From positions 1 through 32,598 of the forward strand of contig DYNN01000026.1 of the NCBI GenBank assembly GCA_020721045.1: a stretch of DNA of 32,598 bases, read 5' to 3'. The position numbers and the translations under genes were made by a program. Under the pieces are notes generated by a model. It was not told where the DNA came from, ran no database searches, and saw only the letters and a program-made list of their open reading frames with translations. The stretch comes from Thiomargarita sp. (GTDB lineage: Bacteria > Pseudomonadota > Gammaproteobacteria > Beggiatoales > Beggiatoaceae). Every line of letters starts with the position of its first letter. Position 1 is the first letter of the stretch. Below, piece after piece: positions 2,379 to 19,460 of this stretch.

Positions 2379-5108
2379 CTAACTTAATTGACCATGACAC
2401 TGTTTGTACTTTTTACCAGAGCCGCAAGGGCAGGGTTCGTTACGTCCCACTTTCTTTTCCGAACGCACAAAAGGCGTATGCGCATTATCTTCCGCTTTAT
2501 CACTTTCATCTTCTTCAGATAAACTATTGGTTTCTGCATGTTGGAATTGCATATGAGTCGGTGTTTGGTGCTGTTGTTCAATTACCTGCGCTTCTGCTTG
2601 TGTTTGAAATTGCACTTTGGAAATAATCTCAATGACACGTAGATCAACAGCATGTAACATTTGGGTAAACATTTCAAAGGCTTCACGCTTAAATTCATGT
2701 TTGGGATTTTTCTGTGCATAACCCCGTAAGTGAATGCCTTGTCGTAGATAATCCATGGCTGCAAGATGTTCTTTCCAAAAAGTGTCAAGTACTTGTAGCA
2801 TAATGTTTTTTTCAAAGATACGCATATTTTGCGCAGAAATTTGAGTTTCTTTTTGCAAATATACTGATTCTAAAGCATTCAGTATTTTTTCTCGTACAGT
2901 TTCTTCATGCAAAGCCTCGTCTTCCTGTAACCATTGCGCAATCGGCAAACGTGTACCGAAAGATTGCTCCAAAGCATTTTCCAGCCCCGGTATGTTCCAC
3001 AATTCATCCAAACTTTTAGGTGGAATATATTGGTCGATGGTTTCGGTAAGAATTTCAAATCGTTTATTTTTAATTGCGTCTTCAATCGATTCCAATTCTA
3101 AGAGATCGTTACGTCTTTCGTAGACAATCCGACGTTGATCATTGGCAACATCATCATATTCAAGCAATTGTTTACGAATATCGAAGTTTCTACCTTCAAC
3201 TTTACGTTGTGCAGTTTCAATGCTGCGACTTACCCAAGGATGTTCAATGGCTTCACCATCGCCCATACCTAATTTTTGCATTAACCCAGCGACGCGATCT
3301 GAGGCAAAAATCCGCATTAAACTGTCTTCTAAAGATAAGTAAAAACGGCTTGAACCCGGATCGCCTTGTCGTCCAGCCCGTCCACGCAATTGGTTATCGA
3401 TTCGTCGTGATTCGTGTCGTTCAGTACCAATAATGTGTAAACCGCCGCTGCTCAATACTTGTGCATGACGTTCTTTCCATTCTGCACGCATTTGTTGGAT
3501 TTGTTCTTCAGTACTTTGATCGCCTAATGCTTTAATTTCAGCTTCAACATTACCGCCTAATACAATATCAGTCCCACGTCCTGCCATGTTAGTTGCAATT
3601 GTTACAGCGCCCGGGCGACCGGCTTGTACGATAATTTCAGCTTCTTTTTCATGCAACTTCGCATTTAATACTTGATGCTTAATCTTTTCTTTTTGCAATA
3701 AGCGAGAAATAATTTCTGAATTTTCAATCGACGTTGTACCCACTAATACTGGCTGTTTTCGTTGTTGGCAATCTTTGATATCCTCTAAAATTGCGTTTAA
3801 TTTCTCTTGTTTCGTTAAGAAAACCAAATCGCCCAAATCTTTACGAATCATGTCTTTGTGGGTAGGGATAACGAGAACTTCTAAATTATAAATACTTTGA
3901 AATTCAAAAGCTTCTGTGTCAGCCGTGCCCGTCATACCCGACAATTTTTTGTATAAACGGAAGAGATTTTGGAAAGTAATTGAAGCCATGGTCTGATTTT
4001 CGTTTTGAATCGGCACATTTTCTTTGGCTTCTAACGCTTGGTGTAAACCTTCTGACCAACGACGCCCCGGCATTGTACGACCGGTAAATTCATCAACAAT
4101 CACAATTTGACTGTCTTTGACGATATAATCCGTATTTTTTTCAAACAAGTGGTGCGCACGCAAAGCGGCATTGACGTGATGCATTAATACGATATTTTTT
4201 GAGTCGTATAAATTTTCCTGCGCATTCAAAATACCGTTTTTAATCAACAACTCTTCAACATGTTGATGTCCTTCATCGCTGAGTAAAACTTGTTTATTCT
4301 TCTCATCAACATAAAAATCCCCGGGTACTTCTTCTTCGTCATCTTTATGAGGCGCTCTTGCTTGTGAAACTAATAGCGGAACCAGTTGATTAACACGTTT
4401 GTAAAGTATTGAATTATCATCCGTTGATCCAGATATAATCAGAGGTGTGCGTGCTTCATCAATCAAAATAGAATCAACTTCATCAACGACAGCAAAATGT
4501 AAATCACGCTGAACCCGATCGGCTGATTTAAAAACCATATTATCGCGCAGATAATCAAAACCAATTTCATTATTAGTGGCATAAGTGATATCTGCTTGAT
4601 AAGCCAGTTGTTTTTCTTCATGGTTCATGCCGGGTACACTCACACCGACAGTCATACCCAAAAAACGATAAATTTGTCCCATCCATTCGGCATCACGGCG
4701 CGCTAAATAATCATTCACAGTGACGATATGTGCGCCTTTACCGGGCAGCGCATTGAGATAAGTGGCTAACGTGGCAACTAAGGTTTTACCTTCACCTGTG
4801 CGCATTTCTGCAATTTTACCTTGATGTAGTGCAATTCCGCCTATCAGTTGTACATCAAAATGACGCATATTTAAAACACGTTTACCTGCTTCACGGACGG
4901 TAGCAAAAGCTTCTGGTAATAGCTCGTCTAGTGATTCGCCTTTATCCAAACGCTGACGAAATTCTACGGTTCTATTTTTTAATTGTTCATCTGTTAAGTC
5001 AATCAGAGAGGTTTCAAATGCATTAATTTGCTCAACAGTTTTGAGCATTCGTTTAATAAGCCGTTGATTACGGCTGCCAAAAATCTTGGTCAGTAGTTTT
5101 GTTATCAT
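2379..5108 (-). CDS. secA: Protein translocase ATPase SecA
   Basis: The motor of Sec protein export, which pushes unfolded preproteins through SecYEG by ATP hydrolysis at the inner membrane. At 909 residues it has the normal proteobacterial length (E. coli 901). Visible landmarks are the Walker A segment [13 protein letters not shown] near residue 103, the DEAD-type box [18 protein letters not shown] near 207, the motor motif [14 protein letters not shown] near 508, the arginine-finger region [20 protein letters not shown], and the C-terminal SEC-C zinc motif [14 protein letters not shown] (SecB/ribosome binding). It is a single-gene unit with about 300 bases of non-coding DNA upstream. It appears complete. 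Confidence 0.98.
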
Positions 5109-5414: not shown

Positions 5415-6083
5415 TTATCTGATAATAGTAAATGGTATAAAATTTTGTACTTTAGACAATAAATCTGCTAGAACGGGTAGATTTTCATATTGAGATATTC
5501 GACAACGTTGTAGAACATACTGGTGCACACCTAATTTTGCCAGTTGTGCGGCTAACGAAAGAATGCTTTCTGTGGTTAAAAAATGAGTATCAATAGTTGT
5601 ACGAAATTCACAGGTAATTCCCGAATTTAGCAGATATTGCGCACTTTTTAAAGCAAGTTCTCCACTTTTTGGTATACCAGTGATTTTTTCATAGTCAGTA
5701 AAATGTGCTTTAATATCAAAACCTACCCAATCAAGATAAGGTAATAGTGAAACAAAATTATCTGGTTGAATGCCTGCTGTGTGTAATCCAATTTTAAATC
5801 CTAAACTTCGTACTTCTGATATTGCGGTTAATAGATTTTTTTGTAATGTTGGTTCGCCACCACTAAAAACAACAGCATCCAGTAAGCCACGTCTTGTTTC
5901 TAAAAATTGAAGTATATGCTGCCAACTATATGTTTCTGCTTTAAAATCTAATAGTGACGTATTATGACAGTAATGACAACGCCACGCACAACCTTGACAA
6001 AAAACAACTGCTGCTAAATGGTCAGGAAAATCTATTGTTGTAAACGGAGTAAATCCTCCTACAACAATCGTTTTCTTTAACAC
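5415..6083 (-). CDS. nrdG: Anaerobic RNR activase NrdG (radical SAM)
   Basis: A radical-SAM enzyme of 222 residues that uses a 4Fe-4S cluster and SAM to place the glycyl radical on the class III ribonucleotide reductase. The cluster ligands are in CQGCAWRCHYC (Cys32, Cys36 and Cys39 form CX3CX2C; Cys29 is extra), and the SAM-binding SGGEPT motif lies near residue 75. The start is a GTG at 6083 that overlaps the stop of the small glycyl-radical ORF by 7 bases, so the two should be translationally coupled. It is larger than E. coli NrdG (154 residues) and resembles the longer type annotated in many non-enteric bacteria. Its substrate here would be Gly27 of that small protein rather than the C-terminus of NrdD. 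Confidence 0.92.
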   Translation of the reverse strand: MLKKTIVVGGFTPFTTIDFPDHLAAVVFCQGCAWRCHYCHNTSLLDFKAETYSWQHILQFLETRRGLLDAVVFSGGEPTLQKNLLTAISEVRSLGFKIGLHTAGIQPDNFVSLLPYLDWVGFDIKAHFTDYEKITGIPKSGELALKSAQYLLNSGITCEFRTTIDTHFLTTESILSLAAQLAKLGVHQYVLQRCRISQYENLPVLADLLSKVQNFIPFTIIR

Positions 6084-6244
6084 AAGCGAACTTCTTGAAA
6101 ATGAACACGTTCTTCATGTTCCCCTTGTTTTCCCGGATTAAAAGTGTCTACAGGTCGATGGTATCCCATCACACGAGTCCATATTTCACAAGGTTGACGT
6201 TCTTCGTCAGTGAGTTGAATGTGATTTTTTAATTCATTTGACAT
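6077..6244 (-). CDS. Separate glycyl-radical domain of class III RNR (55 aa)
   Basis: A short ORF of 55 residues that carries the part NrdD lacks. CEIWTRVMGYHRPV (residues 19-32) followed by FNPGKQ (35-40) matches the glycyl-radical loop at the C-terminus of ordinary NrdD proteins, with Gly27 of RVMGY as the radical site. It starts at an ATG inside the last codons of nrdD, in a different frame, with 16 bases of overlap. AGGAA stands just ahead of this ATG as a ribosome-binding site. Its stop overlaps the GTG of nrdG. The fusion point fits: NrdD ends right after its zinc site, where the glycyl domain would normally continue. It presumably docks onto NrdD in trans and is activated by NrdG. I saw no slippery heptamer that would argue for frameshifting. 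Confidence 0.82.
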   Translation of the reverse strand: MSNELKNHIQLTDEERQPCEIWTRVMGYHRPVDTFNPGKQGEHEERVHFQEVRLC

Positions 6245-7929
6245 AATTTTTCCTGTTGTTTTTGTGTTAAACGTTCTTCATCACAATGTGGACAAAAACG
6301 GTGTTCTCCCGCTAAGTATCCATGCGTAGGGCAAAGAGAGAAGGTTGGAGTGATTGTGATATAAGGTAAATTGGAGTGTTCTAATACGCGACGTACCAAT
6401 GTTTTACAGGCTTGAGTACTGGAAATTTGCTCGCTCATGTATAAATGCAATACTGTGCCACCTGTATAACGTTTTTGTAATTCATTTTGATAAATAATGG
6501 CTTCAAAGGGATCGTCGGTAAAACCAACTGGTAGTTGTGAAGAATTGGTATAATAAGGTCGTTCCGTAGTGCCAGCTTGTAAAATAGATGGATATCGCTT
6601 TTTGTCTTCTTTAGCAAAACGGTAAGTTGCTCCTTCTGCTGGCGTGGCTTCTAAGTTGTAAAGATGTCCAGTTTCTTCTTGGAATTTAATTATTTGCTCT
6701 CTAATATGATCTAATAAACGTAAAGCAAAATTTTGTCCGTATTCCGTTGTAATATTGTGAGTATCTTGGGTAAAATTGCGTATCATTTCATTAATCCCAT
6801 TGACGCCCAACGTAGAAAAGTGATTACGCAACGTGCCTAAATACCGTTTAGTGTAAGGGAATAATCCAGCTTCTAGATAATGCTGAATGGTTTGTCGTTT
6901 AATTTCTAAACTTTGCTTACCTAATGTTAATAGTTTATCTAATTGTTGGTACAATCCTTTTTCATCATTTTGGTAAACATAGCCTAGACGCGCACAATTA
7001 ATCGTCACTACACCAATTGAGCCGGTTTGTTCAGCCGAACCGAACAAGCCATTTCCGCGCTTTAATAATTCTCTTAAATCTAGTTGTAAGCGACAACACA
7101 TACTTCTAACCATATGAGGTTTTAATTCGGAATTAATAAAATTTTGGAAATACGGTAATCCAAATTTGGCAGTCAGATTGAATAATAAATCTGCGTTAGG
7201 CGTGTCCCATAGAAAATCTGGAGTGATATTGTAAGTGGGAATAGGAAAGGAAAATATACGCCCTTTAGCATCTCCAGCTAACATAATTTCTAGGTAAGCA
7301 CGATTTATCATGTCTATTTCTGTTTGCAAATCACCATAGGTAAATGGCATTTCAACGCCTGCAATGATTGGCACTTGTTGCCGCAAATCTTCAGGACACA
7401 CCCAATCGAAAGTGACATTGGTAAAAGGTGATTGCGAACCCCAACGCGAAGGAACATTTAAATTGTAAATAAACTCTTGAATTGATTGCTTAACTTCTGC
7501 TAAAGATAAAGCGTCTTTTCGTATATAAGGTGCTAAATAAGTATCAAAAGAACTAAACGCTTGAGCACCTGCCCATTCATTTTGTAACGTGCCTAAAAAA
7601 TTGACCATTTGCCCAATGGCACTTTGTAAGTGTTTAGGCGGCGTTGCTTCTATTCGATTTGTAATTCCATTAAATCCTTCCATCAATAACTGACGTAGTG
7701 ACCAACCGGCGCAATATCCACTGAACATATCTAAATCGTGAATATGAAAGTCACCTTGACGATGCGCTTGATTAATTTCAGCAGAATAAATATAGTCTAA
7801 CCAATAATTTGCAATAGCTTTACCTGCCACATTCAAAATTAATCCGCCGAGCGAATAGCCTTGATTTGCATTGGCTTTGACTCGCCAGTCAGTTTTAGTT
7901 AAATATTCTTCTACAGAGAGTTGATTCAT
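6229..7929 (-). CDS. nrdD: Anaerobic ribonucleoside-triphosphate reductase, catalytic part, without glycyl loop
   Basis: The 10-stranded barrel of class III ribonucleotide reductase (566 residues against 712 in E. coli), which makes dNTPs without oxygen. The N-terminal ATP-cone regulatory domain is absent: the protein begins directly with the catalytic part. The active-site region MCCRLQLDLRELLK carries Cys278/Cys279 on the finger loop, and GSIGVVTINCARLGY follows. The C-terminal metal site is CPTH (Cys533, His536) with CPHC (Cys546, Cys549). The chain stops 17 residues later without the RVxGY glycyl-radical motif, which is encoded by the overlapping ORF at 6077-6244. The gene order nrdD, glycyl domain, nrdG is a tight operon. 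Lack of the ATP-cone implies no dATP off-switch of the usual kind. Confidence 0.95.
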   Translation of the reverse strand: MNQLSVEEYLTKTDWRVKANANQGYSLGGLILNVAGKAIANYWLDYIYSAEINQAHRQGDFHIHDLDMFSGYCAGWSLRQLLMEGFNGITNRIEATPPKHLQSAIGQMVNFLGTLQNEWAGAQAFSSFDTYLAPYIRKDALSLAEVKQSIQEFIYNLNVPSRWGSQSPFTNVTFDWVCPEDLRQQVPIIAGVEMPFTYGDLQTEIDMINRAYLEIMLAGDAKGRIFSFPIPTYNITPDFLWDTPNADLLFNLTAKFGLPYFQNFINSELKPHMVRSMCCRLQLDLRELLKRGNGLFGSAEQTGSIGVVTINCARLGYVYQNDEKGLYQQLDKLLTLGKQSLEIKRQTIQHYLEAGLFPYTKRYLGTLRNHFSTLGVNGINEMIRNFTQDTHNITTEYGQNFALRLLDHIREQIIKFQEETGHLYNLEATPAEGATYRFAKEDKKRYPSILQAGTTERPYYTNSSQLPVGFTDDPFEAIIYQNELQKRYTGGTVLHLYMSEQISSTQACKTLVRRVLEHSNLPYITITPTFSLCPTHGYLAGEHRFCPHCDEERLTQKQQEKLCQMN

Positions 7930-8381
7930 TTTTATAGATAAATTTCTTGATTATTAATGTCAACAATATAAAACGAAAAAATATATTTGTCAACGATAAC
8001 AATATTTTTTATTATCAATAAGTTAAATTATAATTAATGGAAGATTATTGAATAAACTATATTTTTATATAAAAGCATTTAAATTATTAATTTTATTGCT
8101 TTCGTTATAACAGATTAAATTCAATAACAAATAATTGTTTAATTAAATTAACTTATTAATATATATAATAAAATTAACAAAATGATCTACTAAGACATAA
8201 AATATATTATTTTTTAATAAATTTTCTACATAGTAACATTATATTTTTCATTTCGCCTAAAATTAAAGCTAATTACAAAATTATTTTATAGATTTGATCT
8301 AAATCAAGTCTATTTATTGAAAATTTTGCTTAACTGAACCAATTTATTATATTTAATGCCGTTAAGCAGAAGGAATATTTT
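7930..8381. other. AT-rich divergent control region nrdD / ubiU
   Basis: 452 bases of very AT-rich DNA between the diverging nrdD and ubiU genes. It must contain both promoters. A perfect FNR operator lies at 8294-8307. Nearer to nrdD there are only weak half-sites, such as TTGAT at 7947-7951, and an AAATATATTT palindrome that vaguely recalls an NrdR box. Neither is good enough to call. No RNA gene or small ORF stands out. Confidence 0.6.
8294..8307 (+). promoter_or_regulatory. Perfect FNR/ANR box upstream of ubiU
   Basis: TTGATCTAAATCAA matches the FNR consensus TTGAT-N4-ATCAA at all ten fixed positions. Its centre is at 8300.5. A class II start 41.5 bases downstream (about 8342) would put TTAACT (8330-8335) at the -10 position, with TG just ahead of it as an extended -10. 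The ubiU ATG is 40 bases further on. It implies oxygen-sensing activation of ubiUV, and it could also act on the divergent nrdD. Confidence 0.85.
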
Positions 8382-9377
8382 ATGGAATTAGTATGTCCCG
8401 CAGGCAATTTTCCGGCTTTAAAAATGGCTGTAGATAATGGTGCCAACGCTGTCTACTTAGGATTTCGTGACGATACTAATGCACGACATTTTGCGGGTTT
8501 AAACTTCGATGCAACAAAAATGCGACAAGGCATTGATTATGCGCATACTCATCAAGTCAAAGTGTTTTTAGCCATTAACACTTATCCACAGCCACAAGGT
8601 TGGCATCGTTGGCAAATGGCGATTGATCAAGCGGCTGATTTGGAAGTAGATGCTTTAATTATTGCTGATTTAGGTGTGTTAGATTATGCGACAGAACGGT
8701 ATCCTCATTTACCGCGTCATCTTTCTGTACAAGCTTCAGCGACCAATTATCAAGCGATTCGTTTTTACCACCGACACTTTGATATTCGTCGTGTAGTATT
8801 GCCACGAGTTCTTTCCTTAGCACAAGTAAAACAAGTCGTTGCCAACAGTCCAGTACCGATTGAAGTATTTGGTTTTGGGAGTTTATGTGTCATGGTAGAA
8901 GGACGCTGTTTACTTTCCTCTTATGTCACCGGACAATCACCTAACACCTTCGGAGCTTGCTCGCCTGCCAATACTGTGGAATGGCGCGAAACAATGCAAG
9001 GATTAGAAACTCGCTTAGGCGGCATACTCATTGATCGACGACAAACTGGTGAAAATGCGGGCTATCCCACTTTGTGTAAAGGACGTTTTCAAGTCGGTCA
9101 ACACACTTATTATGCGATTGAAGAACCAACCAGTCTTAATACTTTGGAAATTTTGCCTGAATTACAGCAAATGGGTGTCAGTGCCATTAAAATTGAAGGA
9201 CGACAACGAAGCCCCGCCTATGTTGCCCAAGTCACCCGTATTTGGCGTGCGGCAATAGATGCTTGTAAAAAAGAAGGTATGCGATTTTCACCAAAAGCAG
9301 CTTGGTTAGCAGAATTACAAAAGATTTCCGAAGGCAGTCAAACCACTTTAGGAGCTTATCATCGACCATGGCAATAG
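8382..9377 (+). CDS. ubiU: O2-independent ubiquinone hydroxylase subunit UbiU (U32 family)
   Basis: A peptidase-U32-family protein of 331 residues. With UbiV it forms the 4Fe-4S heterodimer that hydroxylates the ubiquinone ring from prephenate rather than O2. The opening MELVCPAGNFPALKMAV and the FGFGSLCVMVEGRC segment are typical. The four cluster cysteines, Cys169, Cys176, Cys193 and Cys232, fall at exactly the positions reported for E. coli UbiU. The gene follows an FNR box and overlaps ubiV by 10 bases (ATGGCAATAG), so the pair is made together. A nearby AAGGAA before the ATG serves as ribosome-binding site. It is intact. Confidence 0.95.
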   Translation: MELVCPAGNFPALKMAVDNGANAVYLGFRDDTNARHFAGLNFDATKMRQGIDYAHTHQVKVFLAINTYPQPQGWHRWQMAIDQAADLEVDALIIADLGVLDYATERYPHLPRHLSVQASATNYQAIRFYHRHFDIRRVVLPRVLSLAQVKQVVANSPVPIEVFGFGSLCVMVEGRCLLSSYVTGQSPNTFGACSPANTVEWRETMQGLETRLGGILIDRRQTGENAGYPTLCKGRFQVGQHTYYAIEEPTSLNTLEILPELQQMGVSAIKIEGRQRSPAYVAQVTRIWRAAIDACKKEGMRFSPKAAWLAELQKISEGSQTTLGAYHRPWQ

Positions 9378-10285
9378 CTCACTTTCACTATCCTAAATTG
9401 GCAATGGGACCTATTTTATATTACTGGTCACAAGACACTATTTTTAAATTTTATGACCAACTCGCTCAAACACCTATTGATATTATTTACTTGGGAGAAA
9501 CAGTTTGTTCAAAGCGAAAATTGTTGCGTACGACTGATTGGCTGGCATTAGCGAATGAATTAAAAAGTAGTGGTAAAACCATCGTGTTGTCTACCATGGC
9601 ACTACTTGAAGCTGATTCTGAATTACAAACGCTCAAACGTCTGTGTGAAAATAATGATTTCACGGTTGAAGTAAACGATATGGCAGCTTTACAATTTCTT
9701 GCCGGAAAGCCTTTTATAGCGGGGTTAGGCATTAATATTTATAATAACCGCACTCTTACCTATTTGAGTCAATTGGGACTACAACGTTGGATTTTACCCG
9801 TTGAATTGTCTCATAATACACTGGAAATGTTACATCAGGCGCGTCCTGCTGGCGTTGAAACAGAAGTATTTGTCTACGGTCGTTTGCCATTGGCGTATTC
9901 AGCCCGCTGTTTTACTGCCCGCGCGCATAATTTACCTAAAGATGACTGTCAATATCGCTGCTTAGATTATCCAGATGGTTTACTATTATCCAGCCAAGAA
10001 AAACAACCTTTTCTCGTCTTAAACGGCATTCAAACTCAATCTGCGCATTACTGTAATTTATTGACCGCTTTACCCACATTGATTGACATGAAAATTGACG
10101 TATTGCGTATCAGTCCTCATTCGCAACACTCTGAACAAGTTATTGATATCTTCTACCAAAGCTTACGGCAACCGAATCATATTGAGAGTTATGAACAAAA
10201 GTTGCGCCGTTTAACGCCGTTGGGTAATTGCAATGGTTATTGGTATGGTAAAGAGGGAATGATAAATTACACTACTCGGATATAA
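9368..10285 (+). CDS. ubiV: O2-independent ubiquinone hydroxylase subunit UbiV (U32 family)
   Basis: The partner of UbiU, 305 residues from the ATG at 9368. The frame is open 22 codons further upstream, but MAIAHFHYPKLAMGP is the family-like N-terminus and gives the coupled overlap with the ubiU stop. Candidate 4Fe-4S ligands are Cys47, Cys181, Cys194 and Cys198, with the last three spaced as in E. coli UbiV (180, 193, 197). Its 3' end overlaps the convergent ubiT by 14 bases, leaving no room for a terminator between them. It acts only in anaerobic ubiquinone synthesis, needed for respiration with nitrate or other acceptors under low oxygen. Confidence 0.93.
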   Translation: MAIAHFHYPKLAMGPILYYWSQDTIFKFYDQLAQTPIDIIYLGETVCSKRKLLRTTDWLALANELKSSGKTIVLSTMALLEADSELQTLKRLCENNDFTVEVNDMAALQFLAGKPFIAGLGINIYNNRTLTYLSQLGLQRWILPVELSHNTLEMLHQARPAGVETEVFVYGRLPLAYSARCFTARAHNLPKDDCQYRCLDYPDGLLLSSQEKQPFLVLNGIQTQSAHYCNLLTALPTLIDMKIDVLRISPHSQHSEQVIDIFYQSLRQPNHIESYEQKLRRLTPLGNCNGYWYGKEGMINYTTRI

Positions 10286-11554: not shown

Positions 11555-12934
11555 CTAATCTTCATGGGGGAATTTAACGATTTTTAATGTTGGAATTACA
11601 AGACTTTTTTCATTTAATGGCTGCAACTGTTGTCTGCCATAATTTTCCTCAAGCCATTTAAAATTCTCATCTTCCGGTTTTTCAATCTTTATTGTTGGTA
11701 CCATCACTTTAGCCGGAACTTTACTTGGATCACCTAATAATTCCAACGCATTCTTTACATCAGATAACATAGTTTTTACAAACTCATCCCGTAATTCTTG
11801 CCACTTTGGCGCATTTTGTTCCACATGAGAAGTAGCATGTTCTTGAGGATAAAGCTTTTCTGGTATTGCATCCTCAACAAATACTTGATGATAACGCGAA
11901 CTGTTAAAAACATCATCACTACTATAACGTTCTTTTCGATCAATCAAAAATAAACCAATAGGATCAATGCGTACCGTTCCTAAACCAATCGCTTTACCCA
12001 TACCCAATTTATGACGAAACTCATTTGTAGGACGTAACGCATAAAATAACAAACCCAATTCCCAACGACTGAGATTGTAAAAATCTAGGTGAAAATAAAA
12101 AATTCTCTTTGGTTTAAGAGGACGAATTGCTGTTTTTAATGATTTATTTTTTTCAGAATCAAGCGTTTTCCAAGGTTGCTTTCCATTATCTTGATGCGCA
12201 TGTAAATACATTTTTCTCCCTTGAGGCACATGCTTAGTTGAGTCTAATGTACGTTTAGTAATACATTCCTTTCCTTCATTAGGTTCTTTGAAATACAGGA
12301 TAGGACAAGGTGGTTTAGGTGAAAGTAAACTTTTAAGAACGACTTTCTCTTGATAATAAGGTGTTGATTGTTCAGGATTTAATATACCAAAAGACACATT
12401 CACTCTACCTGCTAATGCACGCCCTTTATCACTACTAGAGCGAGTATCTTTTTGCACAAAACCAAACAACAACTCGGCTGGTGTAATCAAATTACGTCCA
12501 TTGTTAAACGGAAGCAATTCTGGATTGATCTGTTTAAAGAAATGGTGAACTGATTTTTTCATTCCTTGACGCACGGACAGCACACGATCATCTAATACCC
12601 GCAATGCAGAATGACTGGCAGATTCAACCAAAGAAGATAATAAACCACGTAAACTGGAGGCTGGAATTGCTGGTTTACCTTCTAATTAAAAATGTTCTGC
12701 GGTTGCCACTTCTTTAGGATTCGGTCTTGTTTGAGCCGCTCCAACAAAAATCTCTTTTTCAGTCGTCAATTTGCAAATAATACGACCGCTTAACGTGTCA
12801 GAATGATATTTTGCATGACCATAATTTTTCAGATTTCTTTCATCAAAATCAGTCACTTTCAAACTCTGTTCTGGATTTGGATTCTGTCTACTCACTGGTA
12901 CAAAATGATAGGGATTACAAAAAGAATCAGACAT
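11555..12934 (-). pseudogene. Third RAMP (Cas7-like) gene interrupted by an in-frame TAA
   Basis: Two open stretches, 12934-12689 (82 codons) and 12685-11558, are in the same frame and separated only by a TAA at 12688-12686. Read through, they give one protein of about 459 residues that looks like a type III RAMP subunit (I think of the TIGR03986 type). Features are NPYHFVPV at the N-terminus, EGKPAIPASSLRGLLSSL directly after the stop, and the glycine-rich HKLGMGKAIGLGTVRI near the C-terminus. The stop lies inside the conserved segment before the IPASSLRG helix, so the N-terminal piece cannot fold alone. A TTG at 12631 could restart translation without the conserved block. The start overlaps the previous gene by 8 bases. 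Either the gene is dead, or the TAA is a sequencing error or is read through. Confidence 0.8.
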
Positions 12935-14423
12935 TTTTTATCACTCCTACTTTATCGCGAAATTGGGTAACTAACTCATTGATTAATATTTTAATTTCAG
13001 ACAATTCTCTTTTTTCTAAACTCGATTTTTTGTCTTCAGTTAATGTAAATTTGTCTGCAACTTTATCTATTTGATTCAGCGACCAATTTTTTAAAGTGCC
13101 ACGACAACGACCATAGCCTTTAGCCGCGCCAAAACCAAAAGTGATATCTCCTTCACATAAGTCACGGATAACTAAAGCCAATAAACCTAAACCCCAAGGT
13201 TCAATGCGTTCTAAATCAATTGACCATTGACCGGTAAAAGTGGGTTTATATACAGATGCCGCATTAAATTTTAAACGATCACCACTACCACCTGTGAAAC
13301 GATCAATTGAAACAAACTCTTGATGGAAAGAAATTCCTGTATTTTCAACTAAAGTAAAGTCACTGATATTAATTGGTGTTTTCCAATCTGTTGTACCAAA
13401 AAGTTGTGTTGCTAAATCACCGTCTTTGACTTCATTTTTATCTGCTAAAAGCCCTGCTTTTCCACCTAATGTGCGGATAATTCGCTCTGCTTGCGTCCGA
13501 ATCGCACCACGCATAGAACGCGCGGGTAAAATAGCATGACCTTTTGAGTCTCGTTTTGGTTGATGATTAGGTGTTATACCTTTTTGATATAATGAAGGAT
13601 CATTAACTAAAAATGGACTGTCAAATATCAATTCTAAATTCAATTGTAACGTAGCATGTGTAGAAATAAGTTGAGGAATTAAATTATCAAACTGTTTAGA
13701 ATCAATCGGTTCAAATGAATTAAACCACATTTCATTGGTCTTTTGTTCTAACCATTTCTTCGCTTTTTCAGCATCAATACATTCAACTTTTTCTGATTTC
13801 CATGTAAACCTGCCCTGATTTTGCGCCGTATCACTACCCATAGTTATTGGCTCTTGCGCGTCATTAAATCCCTTTAATCCCGCTAATAATAAAGCAACTT
13901 CTTGTTTTTCCAATCCTTGTGCAGTCATATAAACTGAAAATTCTAAATTAGGTGGCACCACTTCTCGATGAAAAAGATGTTTCTCCATTGCAGTACGTGT
14001 ATCTCTATCAATAGTGACACCTACAACCACATTAGCTTGTCGTTTTGCAGACCAATAAGAAGGTGGAAAAGCTGGATTTTCTAATTGTTGGCTTAAAGTC
14101 GCATCAAAAAAATTAACTTTACCTCCAATGGCTTCCTGCTCCTGAGTTTCACTACCAAATAATGCAGTTAATAACGTTTCGTCACTGGACCGATTTTTTA
14201 ACCAAGCGCGTAAATTACCTTTTAAAGCAGTCGCAGGAATATAAGGTTGACCATTAACATCTAATATCACAGCATCCACTTTAATTGATTGATTTTTATC
14301 ATTTTTAAGTGCATCTTGATAAGCTTCTGTAATTTCACCAGAACCTATACGTAGTGAAGTTTGAGTAGTCAATGTGCCAGTAATACGCCAACGTGTTGGA
14401 AATATTGTTAATGAGGCATACAT
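12927..14423 (-). CDS. Double Cas7-like RAMP protein of a type III effector
   Basis: A 498-residue protein with two Cas7/Csm3-like units. Unit 1 has SLRIGSGE (23-30), an Asp at KVDAVI (Asp50) where Csm3-type proteins keep the target-RNA-cleaving Asp, and YIPATALKGNLRAWL. Unit 2 repeats the plan with DSPFLVNDP, ILPARSMRGAIRTQAE and a C-terminal GFGAAKGYGRCRG glycine loop, but the region before its helix (TPNHQPKRD) lacks an obvious catalytic Asp. It would form two of the backbone segments along the crRNA. It starts 2 bases after the preceding stop, with AAGGAG as ribosome-binding site, and overlaps the next RAMP gene, so the three RAMPs are one operon. Such fused double Cas7 proteins are known from type III-D variants. 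Confidence 0.8.
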   Translation of the reverse strand: MYASLTIFPTRWRITGTLTTQTSLRIGSGEITEAYQDALKNDKNQSIKVDAVILDVNGQPYIPATALKGNLRAWLKNRSSDETLLTALFGSETQEQEAIGGKVNFFDATLSQQLENPAFPPSYWSAKRQANVVVGVTIDRDTRTAMEKHLFHREVVPPNLEFSVYMTAQGLEKQEVALLLAGLKGFNDAQEPITMGSDTAQNQGRFTWKSEKVECIDAEKAKKWLEQKTNEMWFNSFEPIDSKQFDNLIPQLISTHATLQLNLELIFDSPFLVNDPSLYQKGITPNHQPKRDSKGHAILPARSMRGAIRTQAERIIRTLGGKAGLLADKNEVKDGDLATQLFGTTDWKTPINISDFTLVENTGISFHQEFVSIDRFTGGSGDRLKFNAASVYKPTFTGQWSIDLERIEPWGLGLLALVIRDLCEGDITFGFGAAKGYGRCRGTLKNWSLNQIDKVADKFTLTEDKKSSLEKRELSEIKILINELVTQFRDKVGVIKNV

Positions 14424-16179: not shown

Positions 16180-17112
16180 TCACTTGCTTTTTAAACGAAT
16201 AACATCAGTTTCATCTACACTGAATAATTTAGCAATTTGTTCAGTAGAAAAACCTTGTTGTAGTGCTAATTGAATACGTTCTAGTTTTTCTTGTTCTTTG
16301 CCCATTCTTGTGCCTTGTTGAATTCCCATTTCAATCCCTTTCTCAACTCCCCGTTCCTCAGCTTTCAGTGATGCTTCTTGTACCGCTTCTTGTACTGCAG
16401 TATCAATGACATTTTTCAAATCTCGATAGTATTTCAGAGAGTTTTCATAGTCTTGCCATTGTTGAAGATTAAAACGTGCTATTTCTGCAACAGCAAATGC
16501 TTGTTCAAATACATCTTCTTTTAAATGAGCGGGAATATCATCAAAATCTTCTAAATGTTTGATAAAATACAACCATTTATCAAAATGCGTTTGTAATTCT
16601 TCAAGCTTTTTTTGAAAACGCGGCATTTCGATGAAAATAAAGGTCAGTTTGTCGTAAAATACTTCACAAACTTCGTTACGTAACTGAATATTCTGTAAAT
16701 ACTGCGCTGTATTTTTATTGTTATCAAAAACAAAATCTAATAGTGCAATGCAATATACAGGTTGTAATTTATAATCCCATTCGCCGCGTTCTGCTTGCTC
16801 TCTGATAGGAAAAGTGGCGTAAAATACACTGCGATCTTTGAAAAAGTTTTGTTTAGCTTTTTGTAATTCAACGATGAATTTATGACCTTCTCGACTTTCA
16901 CAATATAAATCAAAGATAGCCTTGCGATCTAACTCATTATTACCTAATTGTTCATTCTTTTTATAAAATAAATCCTGTATCTGATGTTTAGCGGGTAACA
17001 GTTGATTAAGAAAATCTATGAGCAAACTTTTATTGGCTTCTTCACCAAATAGTTTTTTAAAGCCAAAATCAGTGAATGGATTGATATACTTCGCTTTGTG
17101 GTTGTTTTTCAT
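16180..17112 (-). CDS. Rpn/PD-(D/E)XK family nuclease (second tandem copy)
   Basis: A 310-residue member of the Rpn (recombination-promoting nuclease, PDDEXK_2/transposase_31) family, from the ATG at 17112. The N-terminal signature is NPFTDFGFKKLFG. The nuclease core shows FDLYC (Asp68) and VELQKAKQNFFKDRS (Glu82, Gln84). The C-terminus has a charged helical region with G-E/K-G repeats (VEKGIEMGIQQGTRMGKEQ) and a small helix-turn-helix-like tail (GFSTEQIAKLFSVDE). It is nearly identical in DNA to the copy at 17132-18016 apart from a 48-base difference in the GMxxG repeat zone. The stop lies 24 bases before the next RAMP start. Rpn proteins act as RecA-independent recombination nucleases. A CRISPR role is not known. 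Confidence 0.88.
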   Translation of the reverse strand: MKNNHKAKYINPFTDFGFKKLFGEEANKSLLIDFLNQLLPAKHQIQDLFYKKNEQLGNNELDRKAIFDLYCESREGHKFIVELQKAKQNFFKDRSVFYATFPIREQAERGEWDYKLQPVYCIALLDFVFDNNKNTAQYLQNIQLRNEVCEVFYDKLTFIFIEMPRFQKKLEELQTHFDKWLYFIKHLEDFDDIPAHLKEDVFEQAFAVAEIARFNLQQWQDYENSLKYYRDLKNVIDTAVQEAVQEASLKAEERGVEKGIEMGIQQGTRMGKEQEKLERIQLALQQGFSTEQIAKLFSVDETDVIRLKSK

Positions 17113-17131
17113 AGTCAATATTATTACTTGC

Positions 17132-18016
17132 TCACTTGTTTTTTAAACGAATAACATTAGTTTCATCTACACTGAATAATTTAGCAATTTGTTCCGTAGA
17201 AAAACCTTGTTGTAGTGCTAATTGAATACGTTTTAATTTTTCCAATTCTCTTCCTCTTTCCTCAGCTTTCAGTGATGCTTCTTGTACCGCTTCTTGTACT
17301 GCAGTATCAATGACATTTTTCAAATCTCGATAGTATTTCAGAGAGTTTTCATAGTCTTGCCATTGTTGAAGATTAAAACGTGCTATTTCTGCAACAGCAA
17401 ATGCTTGTTCAAATACATCTTCTTTTAAATGAGCGGGAATATCATCAAAATCTTCTAAATGTTTGATAAAATACAACCATTTATCAAAATGCGTTTGTAA
17501 TTCTTCAAGCTTTTTTTGAAAACGCGGCATTTCGATGAAAATAAAGGTCAGTTTGTCGTAAAATACTTCACAAACTTCGTTACGTAACTGAATATTCTGT
17601 AAATACTGCGCTGTATTTTTATTGTTATCAAAAACAAAATCTAATAGTGCAATGCAATATACAGGTTGTAATTTATAATCCCATTCGCCGCGTTCTGCTT
17701 GCTCTCTGATAGGAAAAGTGGCGTAAAATACACTGCGATCTTTGAAAAAGTTTTGTTTAGCTTTTTGTAATTCAACGATGAATTTATGACCTTCTCGACT
17801 TTCACAATATAAATCAAAGATAGCCTTGCGATCTAACTCATTATTACCTAATTGTTCATTCTTTTTATAAAATAAATCCTGTATCTGATGTTTAGCGGGT
17901 AACAGTTGATTAAGAAAATCTATGAGCAAACTTTTATTGGCTTCTTCACCAAATAGCTTTTTAAAGCCAAAATCAGTGAATGGATTGATATACTTCGCTT
18001 TGTGATTGTTTTTCAT
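17132..18016 (-). CDS. Rpn/PD-(D/E)XK family nuclease (first tandem copy)
   Basis: A 294-residue paralogue of the gene at 16180-17112, with the same active-site residues (Asp68, Glu82, Gln84). It lacks 16 residues of the glycine/charged repeat. The frame extends six codons upstream to 18034, but the ATG at 18016 matches the start of the other copy (MKNNHKAKY) and is preferred. Its first 44 bases overlap the 3' end of cas10 in another frame, so the last 14 or so residues of the Cas10-like protein are read from rpn DNA. This suggests that an rpn gene landed on the cas10 end and was then duplicated. Confidence 0.88.
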   Translation of the reverse strand: MKNNHKAKYINPFTDFGFKKLFGEEANKSLLIDFLNQLLPAKHQIQDLFYKKNEQLGNNELDRKAIFDLYCESREGHKFIVELQKAKQNFFKDRSVFYATFPIREQAERGEWDYKLQPVYCIALLDFVFDNNKNTAQYLQNIQLRNEVCEVFYDKLTFIFIEMPRFQKKLEELQTHFDKWLYFIKHLEDFDDIPAHLKEDVFEQAFAVAEIARFNLQQWQDYENSLKYYRDLKNVIDTAVQEAVQEASLKAEERGRELEKLKRIQLALQQGFSTEQIAKLFSVDETNVIRLKNK

Positions 18017-19460
18017 AGTCGACGGTGCTCTCAAGTTCTAAGTAATCCCATAATTCAATTAAGTGTATCCAAAGCGTTGCATCTTTGCCAAAACAATTTG
18101 CTAATTCGTTTAATTTATCGTCATAATCAGCGATTTTCAAAATTTGTTCAACTTCTGTAGTTAATTCTGCTTTATCTATTTGATTATCATGTAAATAGGC
18201 TTCTACCAATCGATAAACTTTTCCTTTTGATAAATTACGTTTGATAGGATGGACAGCAGAAAGTACTTTGTCCATGTTTTCACCAGAGATAAGTAAATCA
18301 CTACTATTTATTCCTTTTGGACAACGTTGCTGGCGAAATTTTTCTAAATCATCTCCTGTGTAATCAAAAGATTCTAATATTTGGTAAGCCATGCAATTTG
18401 TTGTTCTACTTTTATTTTTTGCTAATTGGGCGAGTTCTTTAGCTAATTTGGTAATACTGTGAATTGGCGCATGATGGTGACAAAAAACTAAACCCGCAGC
18501 ATGAGTTAATGGAATATCACTACTTTTGGGTGCAGGATTGAAAACACTCCACTCTTTAGAGTATTGAAAGAAATCACTGAGTGTCCACCATCCTTGCCAT
18601 GCAGGCACTACTAAAATCATTTCATCACCGCCCCACAGTAATATTTCTAAACGATGTCTATTTTCAGGCGTTGTCCATGTCGGTTTGCCAAGCGTTTCTT
18701 TTAATAAATTGGCTAAAAATGAGCGTCGATGCGTTTTTACTGTGTTATCAAATTCTCTTAATCCATCTTCACTACCTTCTTTACACATATGTTGTTCTAT
18801 TTGACCGAATCCGTTACCATCTAAATAAATGACAGCCATTTTACCATTTAAATTACTTTGTTTTTTATCTTCAGTCAGTTCATTGAATTCTCTAATAAAA
18901 TCTTTAACATCTTTTATATTAATAGGAGAATTTTCCAATTTTTCTATTTCTTGGCGGTAAAAAGTGCGTTTTTGTCCATTTCCATATCTTCTACGTTGAT
19001 AGACAGACTCACTCACTGTAATAGTGGCTTCACCTTTAGTCATCGAATGATTGCTAGGACGAATAAAATCAACTTCGCATATAGTGTGTTCTAAAGATTG
19101 TAATTCTGGATAAATAACTGTGGCTGATTGCATTTGTTGCCAACGTGTGAGGGCAATCAATGTTTCTCGATCCGTATAAAAAGAATCTGAAACTGGAATG
19201 CTATTAACTAATAAAGTAGTGTTTTTCAGTTTTGTATCTTGTTCAAGATAATCAATCACTTCCTGTTTTAGATCAGTGTTACTTTTAAAAAGTCCAGAAG
19301 AGGCACCCGTGCTTATGATTTCAAGTTGCTTGAATTTATTTTTAATTCTTTCAGTGGCTCTTAACAATAACAAACTACCCCCGCGAATTGTGCTTAAGTC
19401 TTGGGTATCACTGATAAAATTATCTAAATTGACTGCTTCCATATAGAGATAAAATGCCAT
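17973..19460 (-). CDS. cas10: Short Cas10-like protein (two Palm domains, no HD nuclease)
   Basis: A 495-residue large subunit of a type III-like effector. It begins directly with a Palm1-like segment (MEAVNLDNFISDTQDLSTI, then RGGSLLLL), so the N-terminal HD DNase of usual Cas10 is missing. Palm2 starts at MAVIYLDGNGFG (Asp214; the usual DGD is DGN) and carries the cyclase motif WGGDE (277-280). CHHHAPIHSITKLAKELAQLAK is a typical Palm2 segment, and a helical C-terminal D4-like part follows. It should therefore make a nucleotide signal rather than cut DNA. The start has a strong site, AAGGAGG, before ATG 19460. The last residues (after LWDYLELE) are encoded by DNA overlapping rpn, so the natural C-terminus may have been altered. 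It is first in the minus-strand operon. Confidence 0.82.
   Translation of the reverse strand: MAFYLYMEAVNLDNFISDTQDLSTIRGGSLLLLRATERIKNKFKQLEIISTGASSGLFKSNTDLKQEVIDYLEQDTKLKNTTLLVNSIPVSDSFYTDRETLIALTRWQQMQSATVIYPELQSLEHTICEVDFIRPSNHSMTKGEATITVSESVYQRRRYGNGQKRTFYRQEIEKLENSPINIKDVKDFIREFNELTEDKKQSNLNGKMAVIYLDGNGFGQIEQHMCKEGSEDGLREFDNTVKTHRRSFLANLLKETLGKPTWTTPENRHRLEILLWGGDEMILVVPAWQGWWTLSDFFQYSKEWSVFNPAPKSSDIPLTHAAGLVFCHHHAPIHSITKLAKELAQLAKNKSRTTNCMAYQILESFDYTGDDLEKFRQQRCPKGINSSDLLISGENMDKVLSAVHPIKRNLSKGKVYRLVEAYLHDNQIDKAELTTEVEQILKIADYDDKLNELANCFGKDATLWIHLIELWDYLELESTVDYEKQSQSEVYQSIH

Follow-up and report, generated by a model that had tools for sequence, protein, structure and literature searches.

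A separately encoded small protein as the probable glycyl-radical subunit of a class III ribonucleotide reductase

Introduction

Class III ribonucleotide reductase (RNR) has been described as NrdD plus NrdG (e.g., PMC4009431; this and all other papers are cited from extracts). The systems of T4, T. maritima and P. copri have a common fold, finger-loop cysteines, a zinc-type site, a glycyl-radical loop and an NrdG activase. The cysteine motif of the finger loop, MGCR or MCCR, is a feature of the class (PMC9669993). Small separate proteins with a glycyl-radical loop are known as spare parts of pyruvate formate-lyase (PFL): YfiD/GrcA, and Y06I of phage T4. These are the only validated spare parts, and others may exist for other enzymes (PMC8683613).

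RNR catalytic chains split over two genes have been reported before. In Pseudomonas aeruginosa, the adjacent genes NrdJa and NrdJb encode one such chain, which is of class II, unlike the class III split reported here (PMC4860495, PMC4009431). Six phages have a split nrdD, one of them intein-free and in three coding pieces; phage Aeh1 has a functional two-gene nrdA (PMC3653736). These splits were mostly tied to introns, inteins and homing endonucleases in single phages, and the extracts of that paper describe neither a separate radical domain nor orphan copies of one. A search of the open-licence literature turned up no account of NrdD with a split-off radical domain, of the biochemistry of one, or of stand-alone NrdD-type domains in phages.

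Here we describe a locus of Thiomargarita sp. which shares the listed features with the class III systems, but differs from them in carrying the radical loop on a second polypeptide and in lacking the ATP-cone.

The Thiomargarita locus

The analysed stretch of DNA, hereafter the window, comprises 32,598 nucleotides. Three overlapping genes are located on its minus strand: nrdD (6229..7929), for a catalytic subunit of 566 aa; a small ORF (6077..6244) of 55 aa, with an RVMGY motif containing Gly27; and nrdG (5415..6083), for a radical-SAM activase of the NrdG2 type with 222 aa (TIGR02495, E 9.6e-58, over the cut-off). The small ORF overlaps nrdD by 16 nt (6229-6244) and nrdG by 7 nt (6077-6083). 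On the same strand, 5 nt ahead of its ATG, a ribosome-binding-like AGGAA can be read from the sequence (6250..6254). An earlier, sequence-only reading of the window had reported the positions of the small ORF, both overlaps and the AGGAA site, and all agreed with our check of the sequence.

The window NrdD matched positions 2-530 of the 562 of the Pfam family NRDD (PF13597; E 1e-173, 579.5 bits), and the 55-aa protein matched positions 531-562 (E 2.4e-8, 33.5 bits). Both exceeded the curated cut-off of 26.2 bits. Judged by these matches, the two chains combined make up one complete NRDD domain. The NrdD chain stops just past a CxxH...CxxC zinc-type site, and the glycyl-radical loop, absent from its own C-terminus, is encoded in the small ORF, as the earlier reading had proposed. 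That reading was also right about the missing ATP-cone, the alignment to the 684-position PRK08270 model beginning at position 104. The finger-loop motif is MCCR (M277-R280), and Glu427 aligned with Glu495 of T. maritima, the role of which was taken from PMC9669993. In the window's genome (99.92% complete) there were no NRDD matches besides the two chains.

The window's 55-aa protein matched, in addition to PF13597, one DUF under the cut-off of that DUF. In eight small proteins scanned, PF13597 alone was found at E <= 0.01, and the PFL-type Gly_radical family (which we take to be PF01228) was not reported. YfiD/GrcA, named in the sequence-only reading as the closest parallel, is apt in function, but belongs to a different family. 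There is a further difference: in the split enzyme the small protein is the sole visible source of the glycine and does not mend a broken chain.

Most of the bacterial and viral small proteins seen had a stretch D/E-E-R-Q/T-x-C-E-V/I-W preceding the radical loop, which may be a docking element. In this stretch, several relatives of the window family have a threonine instead of the cysteine, which is thus not essential. The motif searches demanded RV/IxGY-like loops, and therefore cannot by themselves show that the glycine is conserved.

A perfect FNR-type palindrome, TTGATCTAAATCAA, is located at 8294..8307, flanked by nrdD and the U32 gene divergent from it, and would suggest anaerobic control. 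Three sites in the window, this one included, match the FNR consensus exactly. With up to two mismatches, 78 FNR-type sites were found in the window versus 44.7 expected, chance being computed at this level only.

Conservation in close relatives

We analysed the best 80 of 565 relatives confirmed in the genome collection, which are hence close by choice. The sequence-only reading had suggested looking for the 55-aa family beside short NrdD proteins, and there it was found: the small ORF lay behind a short NrdD in 78 of these 80, and the other two loci ran off their contigs. A fused NrdD was not seen among these best 80. In 79 loci (window included), the frame of the small ORF relative to nrdD was 0, 1 and 2 in 24, 29 and 26 cases, respectively, with distances between the two genes of -23 to +431 nt. 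A CxxxCxxC ORF (nrdG-like) followed the small ORF in 77 of the 79.

All 80 small ORFs, counting two in L111, start with ATG. Sites resembling a Shine-Dalgarno (SD) sequence of >=4 nt were found at 79 of the 80 starts, compared with 12.7% of 7682 other ATGs, and sites of >=5 nt at 65, compared with 3.2%, an enrichment biased upward because the starts were picked partly by their SD. The core of the small ORF had a median dN/dS of 0.19 (1519 pairs with dS 0.1-1.5, not independent of each other), with one pair above 1, and the entropy at the three codon positions was 0.45/0.37/1.16. The small ORF is under purifying selection.

Some loci deviated from the common arrangement. In 17 of the 80 relatives the small ORF was in frame with nrdD past one stop codon, and in a Methylophaga MAG (L111) past two. 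In a genome with 100% completeness (G649), nrdD and the only small ORF were separated by ~9 kb (9.5 kb when measured from one matched stretch to the other), with the small ORF upstream of nrdD and 5 nt ahead of an nrdG-like ORF, recognized by eye. When 13 genomes were searched whole, the radical part formed a second match in 11, was in frame beyond two stops in G573, and was fused in G715. The Methylophaga MAG is also peculiar in having two small radical ORFs in tandem (3130-3303 and 3367-3549) behind a single nrdD.

Distribution of split and fused NrdD

Among 95 relatives (window included), 22 had NRDD, and in 20 of these the radical part was either separate or preceded by an in-frame stop; a fused form alone was found in G054 and G094, and G012 carried an additional fused copy (counts from our reading of the match rows). 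A class sample of 370 genomes gave 38 with NRDD: 29 split (window included), seven fused (G054, G094, G127, G266, G275, G331 and G397) and two weak or partial (G194 and G247). In a phylum sample of 397 genomes, 142 matched PRK08270 at E <= 0.001, many through the ATP-cone alone. Among the matches listed, 20 genomes were over the PRK08270 cut-off, 17 of them split and three fused (G094, G715 and G054); NrdD from other subfamilies, including the E. coli type, was fused in at least 43 more. This indicates that the split is the rule in the PRK08270 subfamily, but not in NrdD generally. The sequence-only reading had called a glycyl radical supplied in trans unusual, which holds in comparison with the other NrdD subfamilies, but not within this one.

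In the family of G782, 72 of 116 genomes had NRDD, at least 54 of them with a separate small match. The radical part was past an in-frame stop in G821 and G863, and fused in G810; in G804 and G825 the contig ended inside nrdD or <=135 nt from it. Of the control genomes, 6/14 had NRDD.

The split form was also found on plasmids of Cupriavidus, Paracoccus, Bradyrhizobium, Shinella and Sulfuricurvum, including the megaplasmid pHG1 of Cupriavidus necator. Fused NrdD was found on plasmids of Acidiphilium, Actinomyces and Geoalkalibacter. The plasmid records labelled the small ORF “nrdD”, “hypothetical protein” (one Paracoccus record), or not at all. In C. necator, NrdDG is essential for complete denitrification (PMC2864759), a result that does not single out the small gene. 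The C. metallidurans genome paper gives NrdDG, in the extracts used, as Rmet_5137 and Rmet_5139, with one locus number skipped, which probably marks the position of the small ORF.

A quick tree of 158 NrdD rows contained 143 split, 10 fused and 5 undetermined forms. Rows <520 aa and duplicates had been dropped, intein-like loci fell out, and L139, L143 and L173 were labelled by hand. The split and fused states needed four changes, three of which were forced by well-supported branches. Four fused forms were near or in the split clade (L116, L172, L193 and L159) and six farther out (L003, L010, L012, L118, L119 and L173), the distant ones being outside the split clade, and L116 and L193 inside. 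From their place within it, L116 and L193 look like later re-fusions, and not like signs of error. The simplest account of the tree would be one old split, followed by few re-fusions; its base is unsure, due to long branches. The existence of fused relatives shows that the split is not required for function.

Several relatives had nrdD in collinear pieces within one long frame, intein-like at several sites (G001, G002, G012, G017, G023, G025, G032, G035, G037, G039, G857 and others).

Structure model

The NrdD and small protein of one relative (L060) were modelled with AlphaFold as a single chain of 629 residues, with the in-frame TAA read as glycine and 128 sequences in the alignment. The model had a pLDDT of 78.6 and a pTM of 0.83. 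The small part starts at residue 574. The block 571-580 had a pLDDT of 53, and the blocks covering residues 581-629 had 92, 79, 85, 90 and 73. Values below 50 were found at the junction (570-577), near the finger loop (272-275) and in other parts of the barrel.

Solved class III reductases topped the Foldseek list for this model. By VIA-align, residues 23-624 superposed on 9d3x (Z 30.2, rmsd 3.0) and residues 21-625 on 4u3e (Z 29.6, rmsd 3.3). We infer the place of the glycine from the range ends, which are all that the alignment gives. An offset of 18 between the range ends in five T4 NrdD entries would put Gly598 of the model on Gly580; in T. maritima it would fall on 619 to 621 (known Gly621), and in P. 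copri on 712 (known Gly711). As one read-through chain, and not a two-chain prediction, the model may reflect remembered NrdD structures; it is compatible with the small protein docking on NrdD. A profile of 18 small proteins searched against the PDB gave no significant match, T. maritima NrdD being hit at E 0.23-0.24 and an unrelated protein at 0.79.

Alternative explanations and proposed mechanism

A sequencing error, or a programmed frameshift or readthrough, could mean that the true product is one fused chain. A run of five As ahead of the small ATG in the window would fit this, as would the small ORFs that follow nrdD in frame past a single stop and the fused relatives in and outside the split clade. 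The earlier reading had held that fused sister genomes would point to such an error, and fused relatives do exist, but those inside the clade look like re-fusions. The three frames are about equally frequent, the gaps vary freely up to 431 nt, and the small ORFs have their own ATG and, with the bias in start choice mentioned above, SD-like sites. In G649 the small ORF is even upstream of nrdD, contradicting a fused chain. Due to this variation and the G649 arrangement, we rejected the production of one fused chain by error or frameshift, which we regard as extremely improbable; a glycyl radical supplied in trans, as in the sequence-only reading, is the best reading of the frames, gaps and separation. 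The two proteins could instead be joined after translation, by a split intein or by ligation, and large intein-like insertions do occur inside nrdD of several relatives. Short, variable tails without intein-like ends (judged by eye) were seen at the split; joining was therefore rejected too, and has a negligible chance of being correct.

The small protein could also have no more than a repairing or regulatory role, like that of YfiD towards PFL, with NrdD working alone. Its small size, its separate gene and the orphan copies on phages and plasmids would agree with such a role, which we still consider very unlikely, since NrdD stops ahead of the radical loop and the window's genome has just the two NRDD matches. 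That the gene pair is a decaying remnant, with class III activity lost, is hardly credible in view of the purifying selection, the intact core motifs and the nrdG-like ORFs at nearly all loci; no point in its favour was found, and it was rejected.

The small protein is very probably an obligatory glycyl-radical subunit of class III RNR, acting in trans. As NrdD ends ahead of the radical loop, the small protein must supply the glycine in cells without a fused copy, and as the only visible glycine source of the split enzyme it should be obligatory. The parts would work together as follows. The barrel, the cysteines of the finger loop and a zinc-type site would all come from NrdD. The 55-aa protein would dock at the position that the C-terminus takes in fused class III enzymes, its RVMGY loop entering the barrel. 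NrdG, encoded by the next overlapping gene, would put the radical on Gly27, from where it would pass to a finger-loop cysteine, and NTP reduction would begin. The glycine is the point at which oxygen cuts class III enzymes. In the split form only the 55-aa part would then be lost and could be replaced, a speculative benefit of the split.

If this is true, many beta- and gammaproteobacteria, among them organisms in which denitrification is studied, keep the stable radical of an essential enzyme on a subunit of its own, ~50-65 aa long and replaceable. NrdD, small protein and NrdG would then form a natural in vitro system, with the radical on a short chain that could be swapped after exposure to oxygen. 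Recombinant NrdD from species with the split, if cloned without the small ORF, may miss the radical site.

Orphan copies in bacteria, prophages and plasmids

Small radical ORFs were also found without an adjacent nrdD, in prophage-like regions and on plasmids (L220, L221, L222, L223, L224, L225, L176 and L179). One genome (G813) encoded, besides nrdD and the small ORF belonging to it, a further two small ORFs elsewhere on the same contig: L220, which has a gene with matches to phage capsid and prohead protease ~2.5 kb away, and L221, among genes that were phage-like by eye. G841 had two extra copies, one of which (L222) was directly followed by a Phage_Mu_F protein. G857 encoded nrdD and a small ORF on the chromosome, plus another small ORF on a contig of 175,924 bp, and in G281 a copy was found on another contig. 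The A. vinosum plasmid pALVIN01 had, when the plasmid was searched, one small ORF and no large NrdD, and the Allochromatium tepidum plasmid pAt1 carried a small ORF at the place that it has on the G857 contig. L221, L222 and L223 had an extra cysteine-rich stretch ahead of the radical loop.

In the vicinity of the orphan ORF of L225 there was an 890-aa ORF (7365-10037) that by eye resembles the catalytic chain of a class I/II RNR; ORFs similar to SSB and YqaJ were also nearby.

Viral copies

Searching IMG/VR with an alignment of 18 small proteins gave 218 stretches, of which 213 were confirmed. We fetched 80 of these (L231-L310), and searched 50 of the 80 records whole. A radical-loop ORF was recognized in 76 of the 80 loci by motif and in 71 by the gene caller, and NrdD in one (tblastn, E <= 1e-5). 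From the 50 whole records, 49 encoded the small protein without NrdD, and one (G906) encoded both; the records may be fragments, none being known to be 90% complete, so that the absence of NrdD is not proof. Neighbours in 12 viral loci included portal, head maturation protease, major head protein, endolysin and clamp loader genes, with one or two members each (77 of 93 prepared ORFs scanned, plus strand only).

All ten small proteins tested matched PHROG 4132, listed with unknown function (E 7.1e-11 to 0.0039). The matches covered only part of this 179-aa profile, within positions 86-159. Six of the ten also matched weakly the end of PHROG 487, the phage NrdD (E 0.0035-0.032). In INPHARED phages, unlike IMG/VR, there were only weak matches, to one record and to three records. 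The small proteins would offer a testable function for this phage protein family.

The YfiD/GrcA parallel fits these orphan phage and plasmid copies best. By analogy with T4 Y06I (PMC8683613), the phage copies would most likely activate or repair the NrdD of the host; it is possible that they act as a decoy, sequestering NrdG or NrdD. We give even chances to a wider reading, in which the radical domain would be a mobile, exchangeable part, detachable from the bacterial enzyme. Many phages and some plasmids would then bring in a copy that activates, repairs or commandeers the host NrdD for DNA synthesis under anoxia, an RNR counterpart of T4 Y06I and PFL.

Other genes in the window

Divergent from nrdD are two overlapping Peptidase_U32 ORFs (8382-10285), possibly UbiU/UbiV. 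In G649, a U32-like ORF, recognized by eye, also adjoins nrdD. A RAMP superfamily protein (PF03787) is encoded at 12927-14423, so that a type III CRISPR-Cas module may be present there. Further along, two tandem genes of the PD-(D/E)XK transposase family (16180-17118 and 17132-18034) are near-identical, with 290/311 columns identical.
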